From Anaerolineae bacterium (GTDB taxonomy: Bacteria; Chloroflexota; Anaerolineae; Aggregatilineales; Phototrophicaceae), in NCBI GenBank assembly GCA_022843745.1, contig JALHNB010000057.1, forward strand, positions 1-40,331: a stretch of DNA of 40,331 nt, given 5' to 3'. Both the position numbers and the translations under genes were made by a program. This document shows, in pieces, positions 5,177-12,219 of the stretch. The notes under the pieces were generated by a model. The model worked only from the letters and a program-made list of their open reading frames with translations, did not search any database and had not been told where the DNA came from. Each line of letters begins with the position of its first letter. The first letter of the stretch is position 1.

Positions 5177-5965
5177 ATGACTGTATCCAATAAATTGAAT
5201 ACAAACACCTGGACTCTAGCCTTTAAGCCCAATGAACAGGCAAAACTGCGGCTGTTTTGCTTTCCATACGCAGGCGGCGGCGCGTCGATCTATCGCCAGT
5301 GGCCGCAAGCGCTGCCGGAGCAGATCGAGCTTCGTTCAGTCACGCTGCCGGGGCGAGAAGTACGCCTGCGCGAGAAATCCTATACGCGGATTACACCGCT
5401 GGTCGAGACGCTGGTCGAGGCAATTGAGCCGGAACTCGATAAACCGTTCGCATTTTTCGGCCACAGCATGGGCGGGCTGATCGCGTTTGAAACCGCGCGT
5501 GAACTGCGGCGACAGGGTTATCCCGAACCGCAGCACCTGTTTATCTCCGCGCGTCCCGCACCACAGATTGGCCGGGCTGACCCGCCGTTGAGCCATTTGC
5601 CGGACGTGACTTTTGCCAGCGAATTACAACGGCGCTATTCCGGCATTCCGGCGGCGATCTTCCGCGACCCGGAACTGATGGCGATGTATTTGCCGATTCT
5701 GCGGGCCGACCTGGAACTCCTGGAAACCTACAGCTATAACGCCGAAGAACCGCTTGATTACCCGATCTCGACCTATGGGGGAATGCAGGATTTAATGGTG
5801 ACACCGGACAAAATCACACCCTGGCAGCAGCAAACCACCCATGAGTTTAATCGGGCATTGTTTCCTGGCAATCATTTTTTCCTGCAAACCCAGCAATCAC
5901 AGCTTTTAGCAACCATTGGCAGGGCATTAACCGAAATTCTGAACCGGCTAGATGACGCAAGCTAA
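5177..5965 (+). CDS. Type II thioesterase
   Basis: Stand-alone alpha/beta-hydrolase of 262 residues that in PKS/NRPS systems removes wrong or stalled acyl groups from carrier proteins. Family signatures run in order: LFCFPYAGGGASIYRQW (26-42), VTLPGRE (55-61), the nucleophile elbow FFGHSMGG with Ser97, the acid Asp205 in YGGMQDLMV, and His233 in FPGNHFF. All three catalytic residues are present and length is normal. It is the first gene of the polyketide locus, in the same direction as the PKS genes, but the TnpB element now separates it from PKS1. Editing rather than product release is the usual role of this class. As no PKS here has a TE domain, a role in release cannot be ruled out. Confidence 0.93.
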   Translation: MTVSNKLNTNTWTLAFKPNEQAKLRLFCFPYAGGGASIYRQWPQALPEQIELRSVTLPGREVRLREKSYTRITPLVETLVEAIEPELDKPFAFFGHSMGGLIAFETARELRRQGYPEPQHLFISARPAPQIGRADPPLSHLPDVTFASELQRRYSGIPAAIFRDPELMAMYLPILRADLELLETYSYNAEEPLDYPISTYGGMQDLMVTPDKITPWQQQTTHEFNRALFPGNHFFLQTQQSQLLATIGRALTEILNRLDDAS

Positions 5966-5967
5966 TC

Positions 5968-5995
5968 GTAGGGGCGACGCATGCGTCGCCCCCAC
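5968..5995. repeat. GTAGGGGC-family palindromic repeat
   Basis: Inverted repeat with arms GTAGGGGCGACGCA and TGCGTCGCCCCCAC and one mismatch. It starts 3 bp after the thioesterase stop codon. It is nearly the same sequence as the in-frame copy at 26526-26555 in PKS4. It could act as a weak hairpin at the transcript end, but there is no U-tract. Confidence 0.8.
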
Positions 5996-6025
5996 AGTAA
6001 ATACCCATACATATAAGGGGCGCAA

Positions 6026-6180
6026 GTCAACGACTCCCGGATAAATCCGGGAGCTTGTAAGTCAGGCGGGACTTGAACCCTGGACACTGCGAACGTTTGG
6101 GTGATTGACTGCACCCCGACGACCAATGTTGATCGCCGCGTTTACATCGGCATGGGAGACGTGTCCACACGATGTACATT
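6026..6180 (-). ncRNA. Probable omega-RNA (reRNA) overlapping the tnpB 3' end
   Basis: In characterised TnpB systems the guide RNA is made from the 3' part of tnpB through the right-end hairpin, with the guide taken from flanking DNA. Here the equivalent region contains the last part of tnpB and the hairpin at 6034-6053. The guide would be the sequence leftward of about 6025 on the - strand, reading into the thioesterase/PKS1 gap. Boundaries are estimates; only the hairpin is directly seen. Confidence 0.35.
6034..6053 (-). repeat. Right-end hairpin of the TnpB element
   Basis: Stem of 9 bp, CTCCCGGAT against ATCCGGGAG, with a 2-nt loop, about 10 bases beyond the tnpB stop. Position and shape match the subterminal right-end hairpin of IS200/IS605 elements, which also forms the 3' part of the TnpB guide RNA. 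Confidence 0.7.
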
Positions 6181-7156
6181 TGAAAGTAGCTTGATTAGGA
6201 CGATTGGCTTTATCAATATGACCACAGACCGAACATTCACGAGAGGTATTGCGCGGGTCTACCAGAACCACCAGGACACCGCTGCGCTTGGCTTTATAGC
6301 TGACAAAATCGCGCAACTGCTGAAAAGACCAGTTGTGCAACTCGTCACGTCTCCGGCGCGAAACCGTTACCCGGTCACGGATGCCACTCAAATCTTCCAG
6401 GGCAATCCCGCGTCCAGTGCCTTTCGCCGTTTTGACAAGCTGCTTGCTGATACAGTGGTTCGTATCTCGCGCAAACCGAGACTCGCGTCCCGAACGTTCT
6501 TTCAGTTTTCGCCGTGCCGAGTCAGTGCATTTCTTTTGCAGTTTGCGGCGCAGGCGGCGATAACGATGGCGCACATTCAACAGGTGATGCCCCGCATGGA
6601 TATTCCCGTCGCTGTCGGTGGCAATATTCTTGATGCCCAGATCAACACCAAGAAAGCCCTCCAGGTCAATGGGCGCATCTTCAGGAACTTCGCAAGTGGT
6701 GAAAAGGTAGAACGTGCCGCTGCGAAACACCAGATCGCTTTCGCCATCCTGGTATTGCAGCAGCATCTTTTGATACTCGCCGCAGGTAAAAGCGATTGTT
6801 TCACGTCCACCCAATGTCCAGATCGACACGCGCTGTTTTTCAAGCTGCCAGGTCAGAATACGACTGTCAAAGGGAATAGCCCCATGCGGTTTGAACTGCC
6901 GTTTAACCTTTTTATCTTTCTTGTAACTATCGGCAACCTTGCCAACCACTCGTACCGCCAATTGCGCGGTCAAGGCAAACTGCTCACGGATGGTATAGTA
7001 AGCCAGGTGATGCAAACGTACTTTATTGAACGTTTTATCCTGCCACGCCAGATCGCTCACAAAGTCGCAGGCAGCATTGGCGCGTTCCAGTGTTTGCAGA
7101 AGGGATTGCCGTTGTTCATCTGTCGGCAAGAGCTTGACCGTAGCCGTAAGTTTCAT
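6062..7156 (-). CDS. tnpB: TnpB RNA-guided nuclease (IS200/IS605 family OrfB)
   Basis: Protein of 364 residues of the OrfB_IS605 family, the ancestor group of Cas12 nucleases. The start at 7156 gives MKLTATVKLLPTDEQ, the usual N-terminus; earlier in-frame ATGs up to 7192 add a non-conserved stretch. All three RuvC acidic residues are present: Asp172 in GVDLGIKNIATDSDG, Glu254 in GIALEDLSGI and Asp337 in HADVNAAINI. The zinc ribbon is complete (Cys308, Cys311, Cys327, Cys330). A basic helix with RHRYRRLRRKLQKK follows the first RuvC motif. Length and motifs indicate an intact, potentially active nuclease. It runs against all neighbouring genes. A long opposite-strand frame over the same bases has no recognisable motif and is a shadow. 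Confidence 0.93.
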   Translation of the reverse strand: MKLTATVKLLPTDEQRQSLLQTLERANAACDFVSDLAWQDKTFNKVRLHHLAYYTIREQFALTAQLAVRVVGKVADSYKKDKKVKRQFKPHGAIPFDSRILTWQLEKQRVSIWTLGGRETIAFTCGEYQKMLLQYQDGESDLVFRSGTFYLFTTCEVPEDAPIDLEGFLGVDLGIKNIATDSDGNIHAGHHLLNVRHRYRRLRRKLQKKCTDSARRKLKERSGRESRFARDTNHCISKQLVKTAKGTGRGIALEDLSGIRDRVTVSRRRRDELHNWSFQQLRDFVSYKAKRSGVLVVLVDPRNTSRECSVCGHIDKANRPNQATFKCTSCGHVSHADVNAAINIGRRGAVNHPNVRSVQGSSPA

Positions 7157-7208
7157 ATTCAGAAGCATAGCACAAATCATCTTGAATATCAACTAGTTGA
7201 AAGGAAAA

Positions 7209-7250
7209 GCGCCATTCCTCTCCCGGTTAAAACCGGAGGTCTCCTGGCGC
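7209..7250. repeat. Left-end hairpin of the TnpB element
   Basis: Outer arms GCGCCA (7209-7214) and TGGCGC (7245-7250) enclose an inner palindrome CCGGTTAAAACCGG (7223-7236). The structure ends 7 bp before the PKS1 start codon, so it will be part of any PKS1 leader RNA. The only purine-rich ribosome-binding-like stretch upstream of PKS1, GGAGG at 7235-7239, lies inside this hairpin and is far (18 nt) from the ATG. Confidence 0.65.
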
Positions 7251-7257
7251 GAATTCG

Positions 7258-10200
7258 ATGAACGAACCAATTGCGATTATTGGGATGGGCTGCCGTTTTC
7301 CCGGCGGCGCAAACACACCTGATTTACTCTGGCAGCTTTTGCGCGATGGTATAGATGCAATTGGCCCGATGCCGTCGGGGCGATTCGACGTGGACTCTTT
7401 TTATGACCCTACGCCCGGAACACCCGGCAAAATTGTGACTCGCGAGGGTGGATTTCTCGATCAGATTGATCGTTTTGATGCCGCGTTTTTCGGCATTTCC
7501 GCGCGTGAAGCAACCTATATGGATCCGCAGCAGCGCCTTTTGCTCGAAGTGGCATGGGATGCGTTGGAAGATGCGGGGCAGGTGCGCGAAAAAATCGCGG
7601 GCAGCACGACGGGCGTGTTCGTCGGCATGTGGACAAGCGATTACGAAGACGCGATGTATGCTGCATCAGACAACATTGATTTATATGTGACGACAGGTGG
7701 CGGACGCTACTCGGCTTCGGGGCGGCTGTCCTATATTTTTGATTTTCGCGGCCCCAGTATGACGGTTGACAGCGCTTGTTCGTCGTCGCTGGTAGCGGTA
7801 CACCTGGCTTGCCAGAGCTTGTGGAGTGGCGAGGCGCAAATGGCGATTGCCGGGGGTGTCAATCTGATTATCGAGCCGCAAATCACCATCGGCTACTCAC
7901 GTTCGGGGATGCTGTCGCCGGACGCACGATGCAAATTTGGTGATGCTAATGCCAACGGCTATGTCCGTAGTGAAGGCGCGGGGATGATTGTTCTCAAGCC
8001 GCTGTCGCAGGCATTGGCCGATGGCGACCCGATTCATGCGTTAATTCGTGGCGGTGCGGTCAACAACGACGGTCACGCGAGTCCGGTTCTGGTCGCGCCC
8101 AGCAGCGTGGGACAGGCCGCTATGCTGCGCGATGCCTATCGCATGTCGGGTGTCACACCGGGAGAGGTGCGTTACGTGGATGCGCACGGTACGGGTACGC
8201 GGGTGGGTGATCCGGTGGAGTTGATCGCACTCAGCGAAGTTCTCAGTATAGGTCGCGAGGCAAATCGTTACTGTGCGGTTGGCTCAGTCAAGACCAATAT
8301 CGGCCACACCGAAGCCGCGTCGGGTATCGCTGGGTTGATTAAGTCCGTCCTGTGCCTCAAAAATCGTGCTATCCCACCAAGTCTGCATTTCCACGAGCCG
8401 AATCCCAATATCCCCTGGGGCGAAATTCCACTCGTCATACAAACCGAATATGCCCCTTGGCCGGATGATGTGAGTCCGGCGTTCGCGGCTGTCAATTCTT
8501 TTGGCGTAACCGGCACAAACGCGCACATTATTCTGGAAGAAGCGCCAAAATTAAGTGTCCCCACCCCCAACCCCTCCCCATTGCAATGGGGAGGGGAGAA
8601 GGGGAGGGGATGTTATCTCCTGCCGATTTCCGCGCACTCGCCGCAAGCCTTAGCGGAACAGGCACAGGCATTTCGCCAACTACTCCTCGAATCGCCTGGA
8701 GGCCTGGCCAATATCGTTTATACCGCCAGCGCCCGCCGGACACATCACGCTTATCGCGCGGCGGTAGCAGGGTTATCAGCGGCAGAACTCGCCGAGCGAT
8801 TGGGCGTGTTGGCGCAGGAACGCCGCCCATTATCACCACCCGATCAACTTTCGCAGAAACGCAAAGTTGCTTTTGTGTTTCCGGGGCAGGGTGGACAGTG
8901 GATCGGCATGGGTCGCCAGTTATTCGAACGCGAGCCTGTTTTCCGCGCTGCCATCGAAGCCTGCGACACCGCCATGAGCCGTTACGCCGATTGGTCACTT
9001 ATCGAAGAACTGAACAGCGGCGCAAGATTCGACGAAATTGATGTCATTCAACCCGCGTTATTTGGTGTTCAGGTGGCGCTGGCGGCACTCTGGCGCTCAT
9101 GGGGCATCGAGCCGGAAGCGGTTATCGGACACAGTATGGGCGAGGTCGCCGCTGCGCATGTGGCTGGCGTACTGAGTCTGGACAATGCCGCACACATTAT
9201 TTGCCGCCGCAGTCAATTGATGAAACGTGTCAGCAATCAGGGTGCGATGGCGCTGGTCGAATTGACATTTGACGAAGCCCAGGCCGCAATCGTTGGATAT
9301 GAGAGCAAATTATCAATCGCAGTCAGCAACGGCCCACGCTCCCATGTGCTGTCCGGCGACCCTGAAGCGCTGCAAGAAGTCATCCAAACGCTCCAAAGCC
9401 GGGACATCTTCTGCCGCACGATTAAGGTCGATGTCGCCGCCCACAGCCCGCACATGGACAAACTTCGGCCTGAACTTGTGCATGATTTAGGCGCACTCCG
9501 TTCAGAGTCATCGCCGATTCAGGTTTATTCCACCGTGACCGGGGCAAAACGCGAAGGAGATGCTTTCGACGCGGAATACTGGGGACAAAATCTGCGTCAA
9601 CCCGTTCTCTTTTCGGACGCACTTTATCAGGCGCTTCAGGATGGCTTTAACACGTTTATCGAGGTTAACCCACACCTCACGCTCCTGCCCGCGATGGAAC
9701 GCAGCTTACGCGATTATGACCTCGATCATCTGGACAGTATCGCTTTAATATCGTCTACGCGCCGCGAAGAAGACGAGCAAGTCACTATGCTGTCGTCGTT
9801 GGGTACGCTTTACAGCCGGGGCTATGCGCTTGACTGGGACAGGCTTTATCCAACAGGTGGTCGCTCTATTCCGCTGCCTGCTTATCCCTGGCAGCGCGAA
9901 CGCTTCTGGGTGGATGCGTCGCCGGAAACGCCAAAATCGAGCCGAGGCGCTCGTGTCCCCGATCATCCCTTGATTGGTACACGCCTGCCGGAACTGGCAC
10001 ATCTACCCGGAAATTTCTTTTGGGAAAATCCGATCAACTCACGCTTTCAGAATTTCGTGCGCGATCATTACGGCGCGTTGGGTGAACCTGCCTATGCGGA
10101 TATGGCGCTGGCAGCGACAAAATCAGCCTTTGGCGATAAGCTGCACCGCGTCACCGAACTGACCCTCGAACATGCGCCGCCAACATCCGGCAGTTTGCAG

Positions 10201-12219
10201 ATCATTATCGTGTCAAACGACGCAGATTCAGCAGCCGTCCAGATTTTTGGCCGCGAAGACGACACCGCCAATTGGAAACGACTCGCATCCGGCAAAATCG
10301 CGATCAGCCAGGTCGAATCAAGCTGGATACACGAACTGGCATGGGAAGTCGCACCGCGTGAGGCCACAAAATCCGCTACAGCGTCCGGTAGCTGGCTGAT
10401 TTTTGCTGACGACTCCGGACTCGGGGAAAACCTCGCCACGCTGCTTGAAAATCAGGGCGGACGAGCTGTGATGGTAAAACCGCATGACATGAGTCTGCAA
10501 AGCGCGGACGATATGCGGCAATTTTTCGCGACAGCGCTCAAGCCGGATGATCCGCCATGCCGGGGAGTCGTCTATTTGTGGGGCATCAACAATGGCGATA
10601 CATCCCTACAAAACGCTCTGCATCTGATTCAAACGATGGCGCAGGCTGAATGGCGTGAACGCCCACGTTTGTGGCTGGTCACGCAGCAGGCGCAGGCCGT
10701 CATCGACGGTGAATCGCCTGCGCTCGATCAATCGCCACTGTGGGGTTTCGGGCGCGTTGTAGCCAGTGAGCATCCAGAACTCTGGGGCGGGCTGATCGAC
10801 CTCGATGCGAATTTGCCCACCGAAACACTCCTTGAAGAAATCGTCACTCCTGACGGCGAAAATCAGATCGCATGGCGGCAGGGTGAGCGCTATGCCCTAC
10901 GACTAGTTCAAAAACCCCTTCCCTTCGCCCTTCCCCTTGCAAGGGGAGGGGTTGGAGGTGGGGTCATAACCTCCGATGCTGCCTACCTCATCACAGGCGG
11001 TTTGGGCGGGATCGGGGCGCTGGTCGCTCGCTGGATGGTCGATCAGGGCGCACGAACGCTCATTTTAATGGGACGAACGCTGTTCCCACCGCGCGAAGAT
11101 TGGGACTCGATTGATCCTGCCAGCAGCCTGGGACAAAAAATTGCGCTTGTCCTCGATCTTGAAGCACTTGGCGCGAATATCTGCCTCGCCTCTGTAGACG
11201 TGGCGGATGAAAGAGGTCTGCTCGGCTTTATTGACTCGTATCGAACCGAGGGTTGGCCTGCGGTTCGCGGCATCATGCACACAGCAGGCGTACTCGATGA
11301 TCGTCTGCTGCTGCAACTAGACGACTCCTCGATGACCGATGTGCTGCGTCCCAAAGTCGATGGCAGCCTGCTCCTGCACAACCATTTCAGCAACCTCGAT
11401 TTTTTTGTCATGTTCTCGTCGATGAGTTCAATCATGGGCAATCAGGGGCAGGGTAACTATGCCGCTGCCAACGCCTACATGGACGCGCTGGCACACTATC
11501 GCCGCGCACAAGGTCTGCCCGCGATGAGCGTAAATTGGGCGATCTGGAATGATCTCGGCCTCGCGGTCACGTCCGGCGGTCAGATTTTGGCGAAACAACT
11601 CGCCGAAACGGGCATCGACAGCCTCAGCAACCAGCAAGGTATGGAAGCCCTGAACTCCCTGTTCTACGCGGACATCACACAAGCCGTTGTTATCCCGGCT
11701 GATTGGTCGGTATACAAGCAGATGCGGGCTGGACGAACCTATCCGCTGCTGGCAAATCTGGCGGCTCAGACATCCGCTGTTGAGGTCACGCATGTAGCCG
11801 AAAACGGTCTGCGCGAAAGCTTATTGACGATGGAAACATCTGAGCGTTGGGCGGTTATGCAGACCGCGTTACAGGAGCAAGTTGCCCAGGTTCTTAAGCT
11901 ATCGCCATCACAGATTATTCCCGATCAACCGCTTGGCATGTTCGGGCTGGATTCGCTGATGGGCATGGAACTCCGCAACCGTCTGGAAGCCCGATTTGGC
12001 ATAACGCTCCCGGCAACACTGGTCTGGAATTACCCGACTCTGGTGCTGATGACACCCTATCTGGCGGACAAAATGGGCGTTCCGTTGACAGCCGAAGCCG
12101 CCGTCGAAGAATCACTGGAACCCGAATTCGAGGCAGTTGGCGACCTGAACGACATCATCATTGATATTCAATCGCTTTCGGACGATGATATTCTGAAAGC
12201 CTTGATGGGAAAGAAATAA
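7258..12219 (+). CDS. PKS1: type I PKS module KS-AT-(half DH)-KR-ACP
   Basis: Single-module polyketide synthase, 1653 residues. KS about 1-430 with Cys174, His310 and His350, so condensation-competent and not a KSQ loader. AT about 535-885 with Ser626 in GHSMGE and VAAH at 726-729, an arrangement recalling methylmalonyl-type mycobacterial ATs. Residues 903-1015 resemble the first DH hot-dog but lack a proper HxxxGxxxxP and the whole second hot-dog with its Asp, so no dehydration is expected. KR about 1025-1490, with TGGLGGIG, LDD at 1346-1348 (B-type) and Tyr1401. ACP with Ser1566 in GLDSL. The C-terminal tail SLSDDDILKALMGKK looks like a docking segment. The KS begins at residue 3, so unlike the other four there is no N-terminal docking helix, as expected for a first module. 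Two in-frame repeat elements lie at 8558 and 10914. Confidence 0.95.
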   Translation: MNEPIAIIGMGCRFPGGANTPDLLWQLLRDGIDAIGPMPSGRFDVDSFYDPTPGTPGKIVTREGGFLDQIDRFDAAFFGISAREATYMDPQQRLLLEVAWDALEDAGQVREKIAGSTTGVFVGMWTSDYEDAMYAASDNIDLYVTTGGGRYSASGRLSYIFDFRGPSMTVDSACSSSLVAVHLACQSLWSGEAQMAIAGGVNLIIEPQITIGYSRSGMLSPDARCKFGDANANGYVRSEGAGMIVLKPLSQALADGDPIHALIRGGAVNNDGHASPVLVAPSSVGQAAMLRDAYRMSGVTPGEVRYVDAHGTGTRVGDPVELIALSEVLSIGREANRYCAVGSVKTNIGHTEAASGIAGLIKSVLCLKNRAIPPSLHFHEPNPNIPWGEIPLVIQTEYAPWPDDVSPAFAAVNSFGVTGTNAHIILEEAPKLSVPTPNPSPLQWGGEKGRGCYLLPISAHSPQALAEQAQAFRQLLLESPGGLANIVYTASARRTHHAYRAAVAGLSAAELAERLGVLAQERRPLSPPDQLSQKRKVAFVFPGQGGQWIGMGRQLFEREPVFRAAIEACDTAMSRYADWSLIEELNSGARFDEIDVIQPALFGVQVALAALWRSWGIEPEAVIGHSMGEVAAAHVAGVLSLDNAAHIICRRSQLMKRVSNQGAMALVELTFDEAQAAIVGYESKLSIAVSNGPRSHVLSGDPEALQEVIQTLQSRDIFCRTIKVDVAAHSPHMDKLRPELVHDLGALRSESSPIQVYSTVTGAKREGDAFDAEYWGQNLRQPVLFSDALYQALQDGFNTFIEVNPHLTLLPAMERSLRDYDLDHLDSIALISSTRREEDEQVTMLSSLGTLYSRGYALDWDRLYPTGGRSIPLPAYPWQRERFWVDASPETPKSSRGARVPDHPLIGTRLPELAHLPGNFFWENPINSRFQNFVRDHYGALGEPAYADMALAATKSAFGDKLHRVTELTLEHAPPTSGSLQIIIVSNDADSAAVQIFGREDDTANWKRLASGKIAISQVESSWIHELAWEVAPREATKSATASGSWLIFADDSGLGENLATLLENQGGRAVMVKPHDMSLQSADDMRQFFATALKPDDPPCRGVVYLWGINNGDTSLQNALHLIQTMAQAEWRERPRLWLVTQQAQAVIDGESPALDQSPLWGFGRVVASEHPELWGGLIDLDANLPTETLLEEIVTPDGENQIAWRQGERYALRLVQKPLPFALPLARGGVGGGVITSDAAYLITGGLGGIGALVARWMVDQGARTLILMGRTLFPPREDWDSIDPASSLGQKIALVLDLEALGANICLASVDVADERGLLGFIDSYRTEGWPAVRGIMHTAGVLDDRLLLQLDDSSMTDVLRPKVDGSLLLHNHFSNLDFFVMFSSMSSIMGNQGQGNYAAANAYMDALAHYRRAQGLPAMSVNWAIWNDLGLAVTSGGQILAKQLAETGIDSLSNQQGMEALNSLFYADITQAVVIPADWSVYKQMRAGRTYPLLANLAAQTSAVEVTHVAENGLRESLLTMETSERWAVMQTALQEQVAQVLKLSPSQIIPDQPLGMFGLDSLMGMELRNRLEARFGITLPATLVWNYPTLVLMTPYLADKMGVPLTAEAAVEESLEPEFEAVGDLNDIIIDIQSLSDDDILKALMGKK
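8558..8611. repeat. In-frame G/C-rich palindromic element, KS-AT linker of PKS1
   Basis: Contains a perfect 26-bp palindrome at 8571-8596 with arms CCCCTCCCCATTG and CAATGGGGAGGGG, flanked by CCCCACCCCCAA and AGAAGGGGAGGGG. Translated as VPTPNPSPLQWGGEKGRG immediately after the KS end (LEEAPKL) and before the linker motif YLLPIS. Forward orientation of the family. Confidence 0.9.
10914..10965. repeat. In-frame palindromic element before KR of PKS1
   Basis: Core arms CCCCTTG/CAAGGGG followed by GGAGGGGTTGGAGGTGGGGT. It is the reverse orientation of the element at 8558. Translated PLPFALPLARGGVGGGV, placed directly before the KR Rossmann start YLITGGLGG. Confidence 0.88.

Follow-up and report, generated by a model that had tools for sequence, protein, structure and literature searches.

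What becomes of a gene when a mobile element settles exactly between its ribosome-binding site and its start codon? This question is raised by a stretch of 40,331 nucleotides from an Anaerolineae bacterium (contig JALHNB010000057.1; the whole stretch is called the window below), in which a tnpB-bearing element directly precedes the polyketide synthase (PKS) gene PKS1. Our reading of the locus, which we consider very probable, is that a tnpB-only element of the IS200/IS605 type inserted before the PKS1 start in a landing mode that recurs among related elements, and that it may lower the output of PKS1 and could be removed again by excision.

Junction of the element with PKS1

The following features define the junction.
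6026-7257, minus strand: tnpB-only element of the IS200/IS605 type, 1,232 bp, left end at 7257 and right end at 6026; junctions read, ends matched by eye to relatives
6026-6053, minus strand: right end with a hairpin (6034-6053) and the terminal TTGAC (6026-6030; GTCAA on the plus strand), from comparison with relatives
7209-7250, both strands: left-end hairpin with the outer stem GCGCCA/TGGCGC (7209-7214 with 7245-7250) and the inner stem CCGGT/ACCGG, enclosing GGAGG at 7235-7239
7258-12219, plus strand: PKS1, KS-AT-KR-ACP by Pfam, with a DH match just below the cut-off
7258-7262, plus strand: PKS1 start ATGAA, complement of the target motif TTCAT, from the junction reading and the starts of relatives
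6015-6020, plus strand: AAGGGG, the presumed native ribosome-binding site of PKS1, now 1,237 nt from the ATG

The ends of the element were set by eye, by comparison with a second copy in the same genome (L104) and with relatives in other genomes. The left end directly follows TTCAT, i.e. it lies at 7257 on the plus strand, and both ends carry subterminal hairpins. Folded as RNA, the left-end region 7206-7257 reaches -20.1 kcal/mol (z -3.33) and is more stable than its shuffles. The relatives resemble the window element and L104 in that their left ends start a few nucleotides before a hairpin; their right ends read TTGAC or a variant (for example ATGAC, CTGAC or CTTAC), and the element sizes range from 1,216 to 1,296 bp at the 48 junctions with both ends curated. 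The initial annotation had placed an element at 6011-7262. Its presence is confirmed by ends and a size that agree with those of the relatives, and its limits had to be moved slightly inwards. The pentamer TTCAT at the left end, described there as the complement of the ATGAA start of PKS1, is indeed read at the junction 7257/7258. None of the three inverted-repeat pairs found links the two ends of the element, and an Rfam search of 5500-7800 returned nothing at E values up to 1. At one related locus (L196) the right end is followed, within one base, by the ATG of a phosphoesterase-like frame as judged by eye, so right ends can touch starts too.

When the element was removed in silico, AAGGGG came to lie 5 nt before the ATG, separated from it by the CGCAA (6021-6025) that now stands between AAGGGG and the element. 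Reading back from the joined start, three codons separate it from a TAA in the same frame (6014-6016). The anti-Shine-Dalgarno (anti-SD) energy of the reconstructed leader is -6.2 kcal/mol, a value attained by 8.6% of randomly drawn sites of this genome. As a reference, the starts called in a 400-kb portion of the genome, which were chosen partly by their Shine-Dalgarno (SD) sequence, have a mean of -6.0 and random sites a mean of -2.3. The stretch from -20 to -3 of the present PKS1 leader gives -2.7.

Matches to the DNA of the PKS1 locus outside its own genome reach 63-73%, which makes them usable as relatives and not as the same locus; the regions around such matches were taken from six genomes. 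Five of the six relatives fetched (L217-L221, five genomes of the same family) share the start residue of PKS1. They begin with MNEPIAIIG or MREPIAIIG, are 65-70% identical to PKS1 over 101 columns, and have leaders that are purine-rich just before the ATG (AGGGGG, GAGGGGG, AAGGGG twice and GAAGGA). The longer N-terminus that the initial annotation had considered for close relatives is absent from these five and present in the less similar sixth relative (L222, 50% identity), which has no thioesterase match beside it and is probably a different PKS module.

Direct evidence for this mode of landing comes from empty sites of two sister elements. The element at L182, located before a GH18 gene, is lacking in two species of the same genus (L243 and L244), with an unbroken alignment of about 1,000 bp at 94%, and both empty sites read AAAGGAG, 9 nt, ATG. 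For L211 the empty site of another species (L245; 81% over 1,005 bp) reads AGAGGA, 9 nt, ATG. Compared with these sites, the element lies at both loci exactly between SD and ATG, and a target duplication is absent. Seven element-free relatives of L211 are available; their alignments cross the breakpoint unbroken in five cases and fall into two pieces in the other two. A base-by-base join can be read from L245 alone, since the start region of the other six has diverged too far. The comparison for L182 leaves out three more genomes, whose partial matches reach about 70%. One caution applies to L182: about 8 nt of its right-end flank differ almost wholly from both empty sites despite the 94% identity of the locus. 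The expected guide of L182 begins with these nucleotides and would thus not match the L243 and L244 alleles. In L245 the TGA of the upstream gene overlaps the start as ATGA (by eye), so the insertion in L211 may alter the end of the upstream protein.

The earlier placement of the element between the ribosome-binding site and the start of PKS1 is therefore upheld by the junction anatomy, the five relatives with the same start and the empty sites of two sister elements, which are split into SD, spacer and ATG as predicted. Its description of the present leader was likewise accurate: the outer stem of the left-end hairpin ends at 7250, 7 nt before the ATG, and GGAGG is enclosed in the hairpin and poorly spaced, 18 nt from the ATG. 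For PKS1 the position of the element between SD and ATG has good support, and at the two other loci it was seen directly; the SD-ATG join of PKS1 itself we infer from the flanking sequence.

Left-end junctions of related elements

In total, 53 distinct left-end junctions, from the window and from loci of related elements, were curated by eye. Left out were the Streptomyces relatives (most of one 70-locus listing), 22 of the 62 places of another relative listing (two of these are the window element and L104), duplicates (L169 and L170, same site as L168; L035, identical to L165; L198, identical to L037) and incomplete or unreadable left ends (L083, L109, L110, L113-L115, L176, L186, L194, L207, L212, L214 and low-identity loci).

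The target motif ends in CAT or CAC at 49 of the 53 junctions (CAT 17, CAC 32, other endings 4). At 11 of the 17 CAT junctions the complementary ATG begins a reading frame of 100 codons or more. Besides PKS1 the targets are genes for an NTP transferase (L104), TsaD (L105), a Glu/Leu-type dehydrogenase (L034), a signal-peptide-like protein (L178), the GH18 protein (L182), a Ser/Thr kinase (L185), a GNAT protein (L205), a response regulator (L208), an acidic protein (L211) and a second signal-peptide-like protein (L213). Pfam supported seven of the eight target genes submitted (tsaD with 4e-97); L213 had no match, and L178 and L211 were outside this set. The copy L104 in the window's own genome also sits on an ATG, behind AGAGGG. 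Seven of the eight TTCAT junctions lie at starts of open reading frames (ORFs), the exception being L206.

For the background the same ORF rule was applied to 400 kb of the window's genome, with sites inside called genes removed. The observed fractions exceed this expectation both for CAT (11/17 versus 224/995 NYCAT sites, 22.5%; p 2.3e-4) and for TTCAT (7/8 versus 47/160, 29.4%; p 0.0011). With an anti-SD energy of -4.5 or lower required in addition, 8 of 14 CAT junctions compare with 118/995 background sites (11.9%; p 6e-5). The joined SD of L178 is weak (-3.0), and omission of this locus leaves 10/17 (p 0.0013). A comparison with called start codons only (14.3% and 16.7%) gave p 2.7e-6 for CAT and 2.4e-5 for TTCAT, using unlike rules on the two sides. 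The joined leaders of the start-codon cases also have stronger SD energies (mean -6.0, n=9) than those of the other junctions (mean -3.3, n=39; p 0.005). What is new in this analysis is that such landings recur at gene starts, most clearly for the motifs ending in CAT.

The tnpB gene, its expected guide and the surrounding DNA

Three further features belong to the element or its flank, and one lies upstream.
6062-7156, minus strand: tnpB coding sequence, 364 aa, stop included, ATG at 7156; from Pfam, start by comparison with relatives
7164-7192, minus strand: promoter-like site of tnpB, TTGATA-17-TATGCT with TG before the -10 (one found versus 1.2 expected in shuffles; weak alone)
6010-6025, minus strand: expected omega-RNA guide, 16 nt of flank and complement of the PKS1 ribosome-binding region, predicted from its position and the analogy with ISDra2
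5177-5965, plus strand: thioesterase gene, upstream of PKS1 and on the same strand

The window element is a member of the tnpB-bearing IS200/IS605 elements. The protein has the Pfam domains OrfB_IS605 (PF01385, 8.2e-10) and Cas12f1-like_TNB (PF07282, 6.3e-24), both over the cut-off, and alignment to Cas12f identified the RuvC D/E/D motifs as GVDLG, ALEDL and HADVNAA. The element lacks tnpA, tnpB being its sole gene; such tnpB-only elements are labelled IS1341-type. Elements of the IS200/IS605 family are mobilised by TnpA, a Y1 HUH transposase; two Y1_Tnp matches occur elsewhere in the genome and might act on the window element. The genome (7.96 Mb) contains one further close copy, L104 (87% DNA, 90% protein), and two distant TnpB relatives (31% and 23%); short derivatives sharing either end of the element were not found in it. 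The palindrome CAACTAGTTG or a similar one occurs at 7190-7199 and in L104, L106 and L204, overlapping the promoter-like -35 of tnpB, and is perhaps an operator. At L176 a small HTH-like frame ends in a stop codon that overlaps the start of tnpB (by eye).

ISDra2 is reported to integrate 3' of TTGAT on the excised strand, and the last 16 or so nucleotides of its reRNA to come from the flank (PMC8612924); this layout fits the orientation used here for the window element. Several features are shared with IS200/IS605 elements such as ISDra2: insertion without target duplication next to a short fixed motif, on its 3' side in the element strand; subterminal hairpins; a TnpB with OrfB_IS605 and TNB domains; and a flank that serves, or here is expected to serve, as guide (PMC8612924, PMC2806898, PMC6006769). 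In contrast to ISDra2, the family of the window element has the motif NTCAY instead of TTGAT, the element is without tnpA, and the CAT motifs coincide with start codons. No description of start-codon landing by IS605/TnpB elements was found among the matches listed from the open-licence literature, and in the available portion of an article on IS200/IS605 elements in one species (PMC7290912) the term "start codon" does not occur.

The DNA upstream of the element gave some additional observations. Between the thioesterase gene and PKS1 the window has 60 bp of non-element DNA (5966-6025). A near-perfect palindrome (5968-5995, 14-nt arms, 93%), possibly a REP-like repeat, directly follows the thioesterase stop. 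In all four of the relatives L217-L220 a gene lies between thioesterase and PKS1 that is absent at the window locus; in the two examined it encodes a 4'-phosphopantetheinyl transferase (PF01648).

Output of PKS1 and the competing explanations

In the course of events that we propose, the element entered the template strand of PKS1 directly after TTCAT, on its 3' side. This motif being the complement of ATGAA, the insertion point is the phosphate just before the start codon. The reading frame stays whole, and the presumed ribosome-binding site AAGGGG is now 1.2 kb away. Expression of PKS1 would then depend on transcription that passes through the element against the direction of tnpB, or else on an unseen promoter (none was called in the left end toward PKS1), and translation would start behind the left end of the element. 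The output would be lowered and not lost. From the published biology of IS605/TnpB elements it may be expected that TnpB, with a guide that matches the PKS1 leader, cuts the empty allele and holds the element in place, and that excision would restore the original leader exactly. The initial annotation had gone further and suggested that PKS1, and with it the whole line, was silenced or re-wired. This part of the proposal stays conjectural: all five PKS ORFs are open, a sister element likewise precedes tsaD, and an SD-like sequence is present in the left end itself. A 386-codon frame on the plus strand (6101-7261), antisense to tnpB, ends with a TGA that overlaps the PKS1 ATG as ATGA; translational coupling is possible, and chance is the likelier explanation.

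The SD-like sequence lies outside the hairpin and had not been described in the initial annotation.
7200-7205, plus strand: AAAGGA, shortly before the left-end hairpin on its 5' side and a candidate for the first half of a split ribosome-binding site; anti-SD energy -4.9, also covered by the motif survey

Several results weigh against our reading as a whole. No empty allele of the PKS1 locus was found in a DNA search of 154 genomes of the order, so that the join at PKS1 is a reconstruction. The junctions were curated by eye and not blind, and the background consists of 400 kb of one genome, in which genes were called by a home-made program that takes SD strength into account. The looser comparison with called starts overstated the excess, and for L178 and L208 a downstream start is better on SD alone. 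Moreover, the CAC junctions (GTG on the complement) exceed expectation under the same ORF rule (10/32 versus 9.4%, p 5e-4), and also with an SD required (5/30 versus 4.4%, p 0.01), which indicates that the start-codon effect is not confined to ATG. Judged by eye, true or adjoining starts were recognised at 2 of the 32 CAC junctions (L183 and L195; p 0.32 versus called starts); the two rules disagree and both are given. CAT and CAC differ with p 0.026.

One alternative is an explanation by survivor bias alone, according to which any NTCAY is hit, insertions within genes are lost and starts make up a large share of what remains; the landing at PKS1 would be accidental and the gene off or nearly so. 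We regard this as a serious competitor that falls somewhat short of an even chance. Insertions generally cluster just upstream of genes: at 28 of the 53 junctions, a possible start lies no more than 80 nt beyond the left end. This general closeness suggests that the survival of harmless insertions may explain at least part of the recurrence. The CAC motifs act alike but less strongly, only 2 of their 10 cases looking like true or adjoining starts. Survivor bias is countered by a background from which sites inside genes had already been removed and which is nevertheless exceeded for CAT and TTCAT, and by the presence of tsaD among the targets. Loss of tsaD is usually lethal, so translation there presumably goes on.

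Continued translation might be provided by the element itself. A hairpin-bridged ribosome-binding site at PKS1, with AAAGGA as a weak upstream half, is a doubtful step of our scheme, to which we give somewhat less than one chance in three. Slightly less probable in our view is the wider explanation that landing was selected together with a built-in site, the left-end SD keeping any gene hit at its ATG translated and making the start-codon insertion nearly harmless. AAAGGA lies 3 nt before the outer stem and the stem 7 nt before the ATG, which gives a spacing of 10 nt with the hairpin looped out. On the gene strand, AAGGA, AGGAG or GGAGG occurs between -90 and -38 in 21 of 53 left ends compared with 10.5% of shuffles, and it is commoner in start-codon cases (8/11) than in the others (13/42; p 0.015), for motifs that were picked after seeing the sequences and elements that are not independent. 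A hairpin that shortens the distance between SD and AUG is described for the T4 genes 38 and 25 (PMC3014915), and a related arrangement for thrS of E. coli (PMC3936740). The window leader would share with the T4 cases the position of the hairpin between SD and AUG and the cut in effective distance; unlike them, which are supported by mutations and reporters, the window leader is known from its anatomy alone and is supplied by a mobile element. The opposite-strand control speaks against a built-in site: there the same motifs are commoner (29/53; 3/11 start-codon cases and 26/42 others), and the tract may have another role on the tnpB strand. An energy version of the split-site test was not significant (p 0.12), with predicted hairpin feet that look misplaced in several loci (the window element, L104 and L185), AAAGGA is partly paired in the fold of a longer leader, and L178, L205 and L213 lack the motif. 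Less likely still, at under one chance in four, is the boldest version, a TnpB lineage adapted to start codons that wedges SD and AUG apart and whose left-end SD would form a hairpin-bridged site, so that even an essential gene stays translated, with a guide that matches the gene's leader and excision restoring the gene exactly.

It is also conceivable, though highly improbable, that TnpB and its guide have been domesticated as a trans-acting, RNA-guided repressor of the start region. TldR proteins descended from TnpB and have lost the RuvC catalytic residues. A published study presents the TldR proteins as a family of transcription factors guided by RNA (PMC13418256). The window element resembles them in a guide that points at the 5' region of a gene, here as the expected complement of the ribosome-binding region. 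In contrast to TldR, which acts on other genes, its RuvC active-site motifs D, E and D are present and the guide matches the element's own flank, i.e. its own empty site; BLAST with window positions 6000-6095 revealed no other convincing copy in the genome.

Taken together, our reading of an insertion directly before the start codon offers a concrete and testable explanation for a possible low-cost persistence of some IS605/TnpB elements. Where the target motif includes the complement of a start codon, it would steer the surviving insertions to a spot where the protein is spared and only the translation signal is changed. For any such element it predicts that the guide holds the complement of the Shine-Dalgarno sequence, and that excision would act as a clean translation switch.

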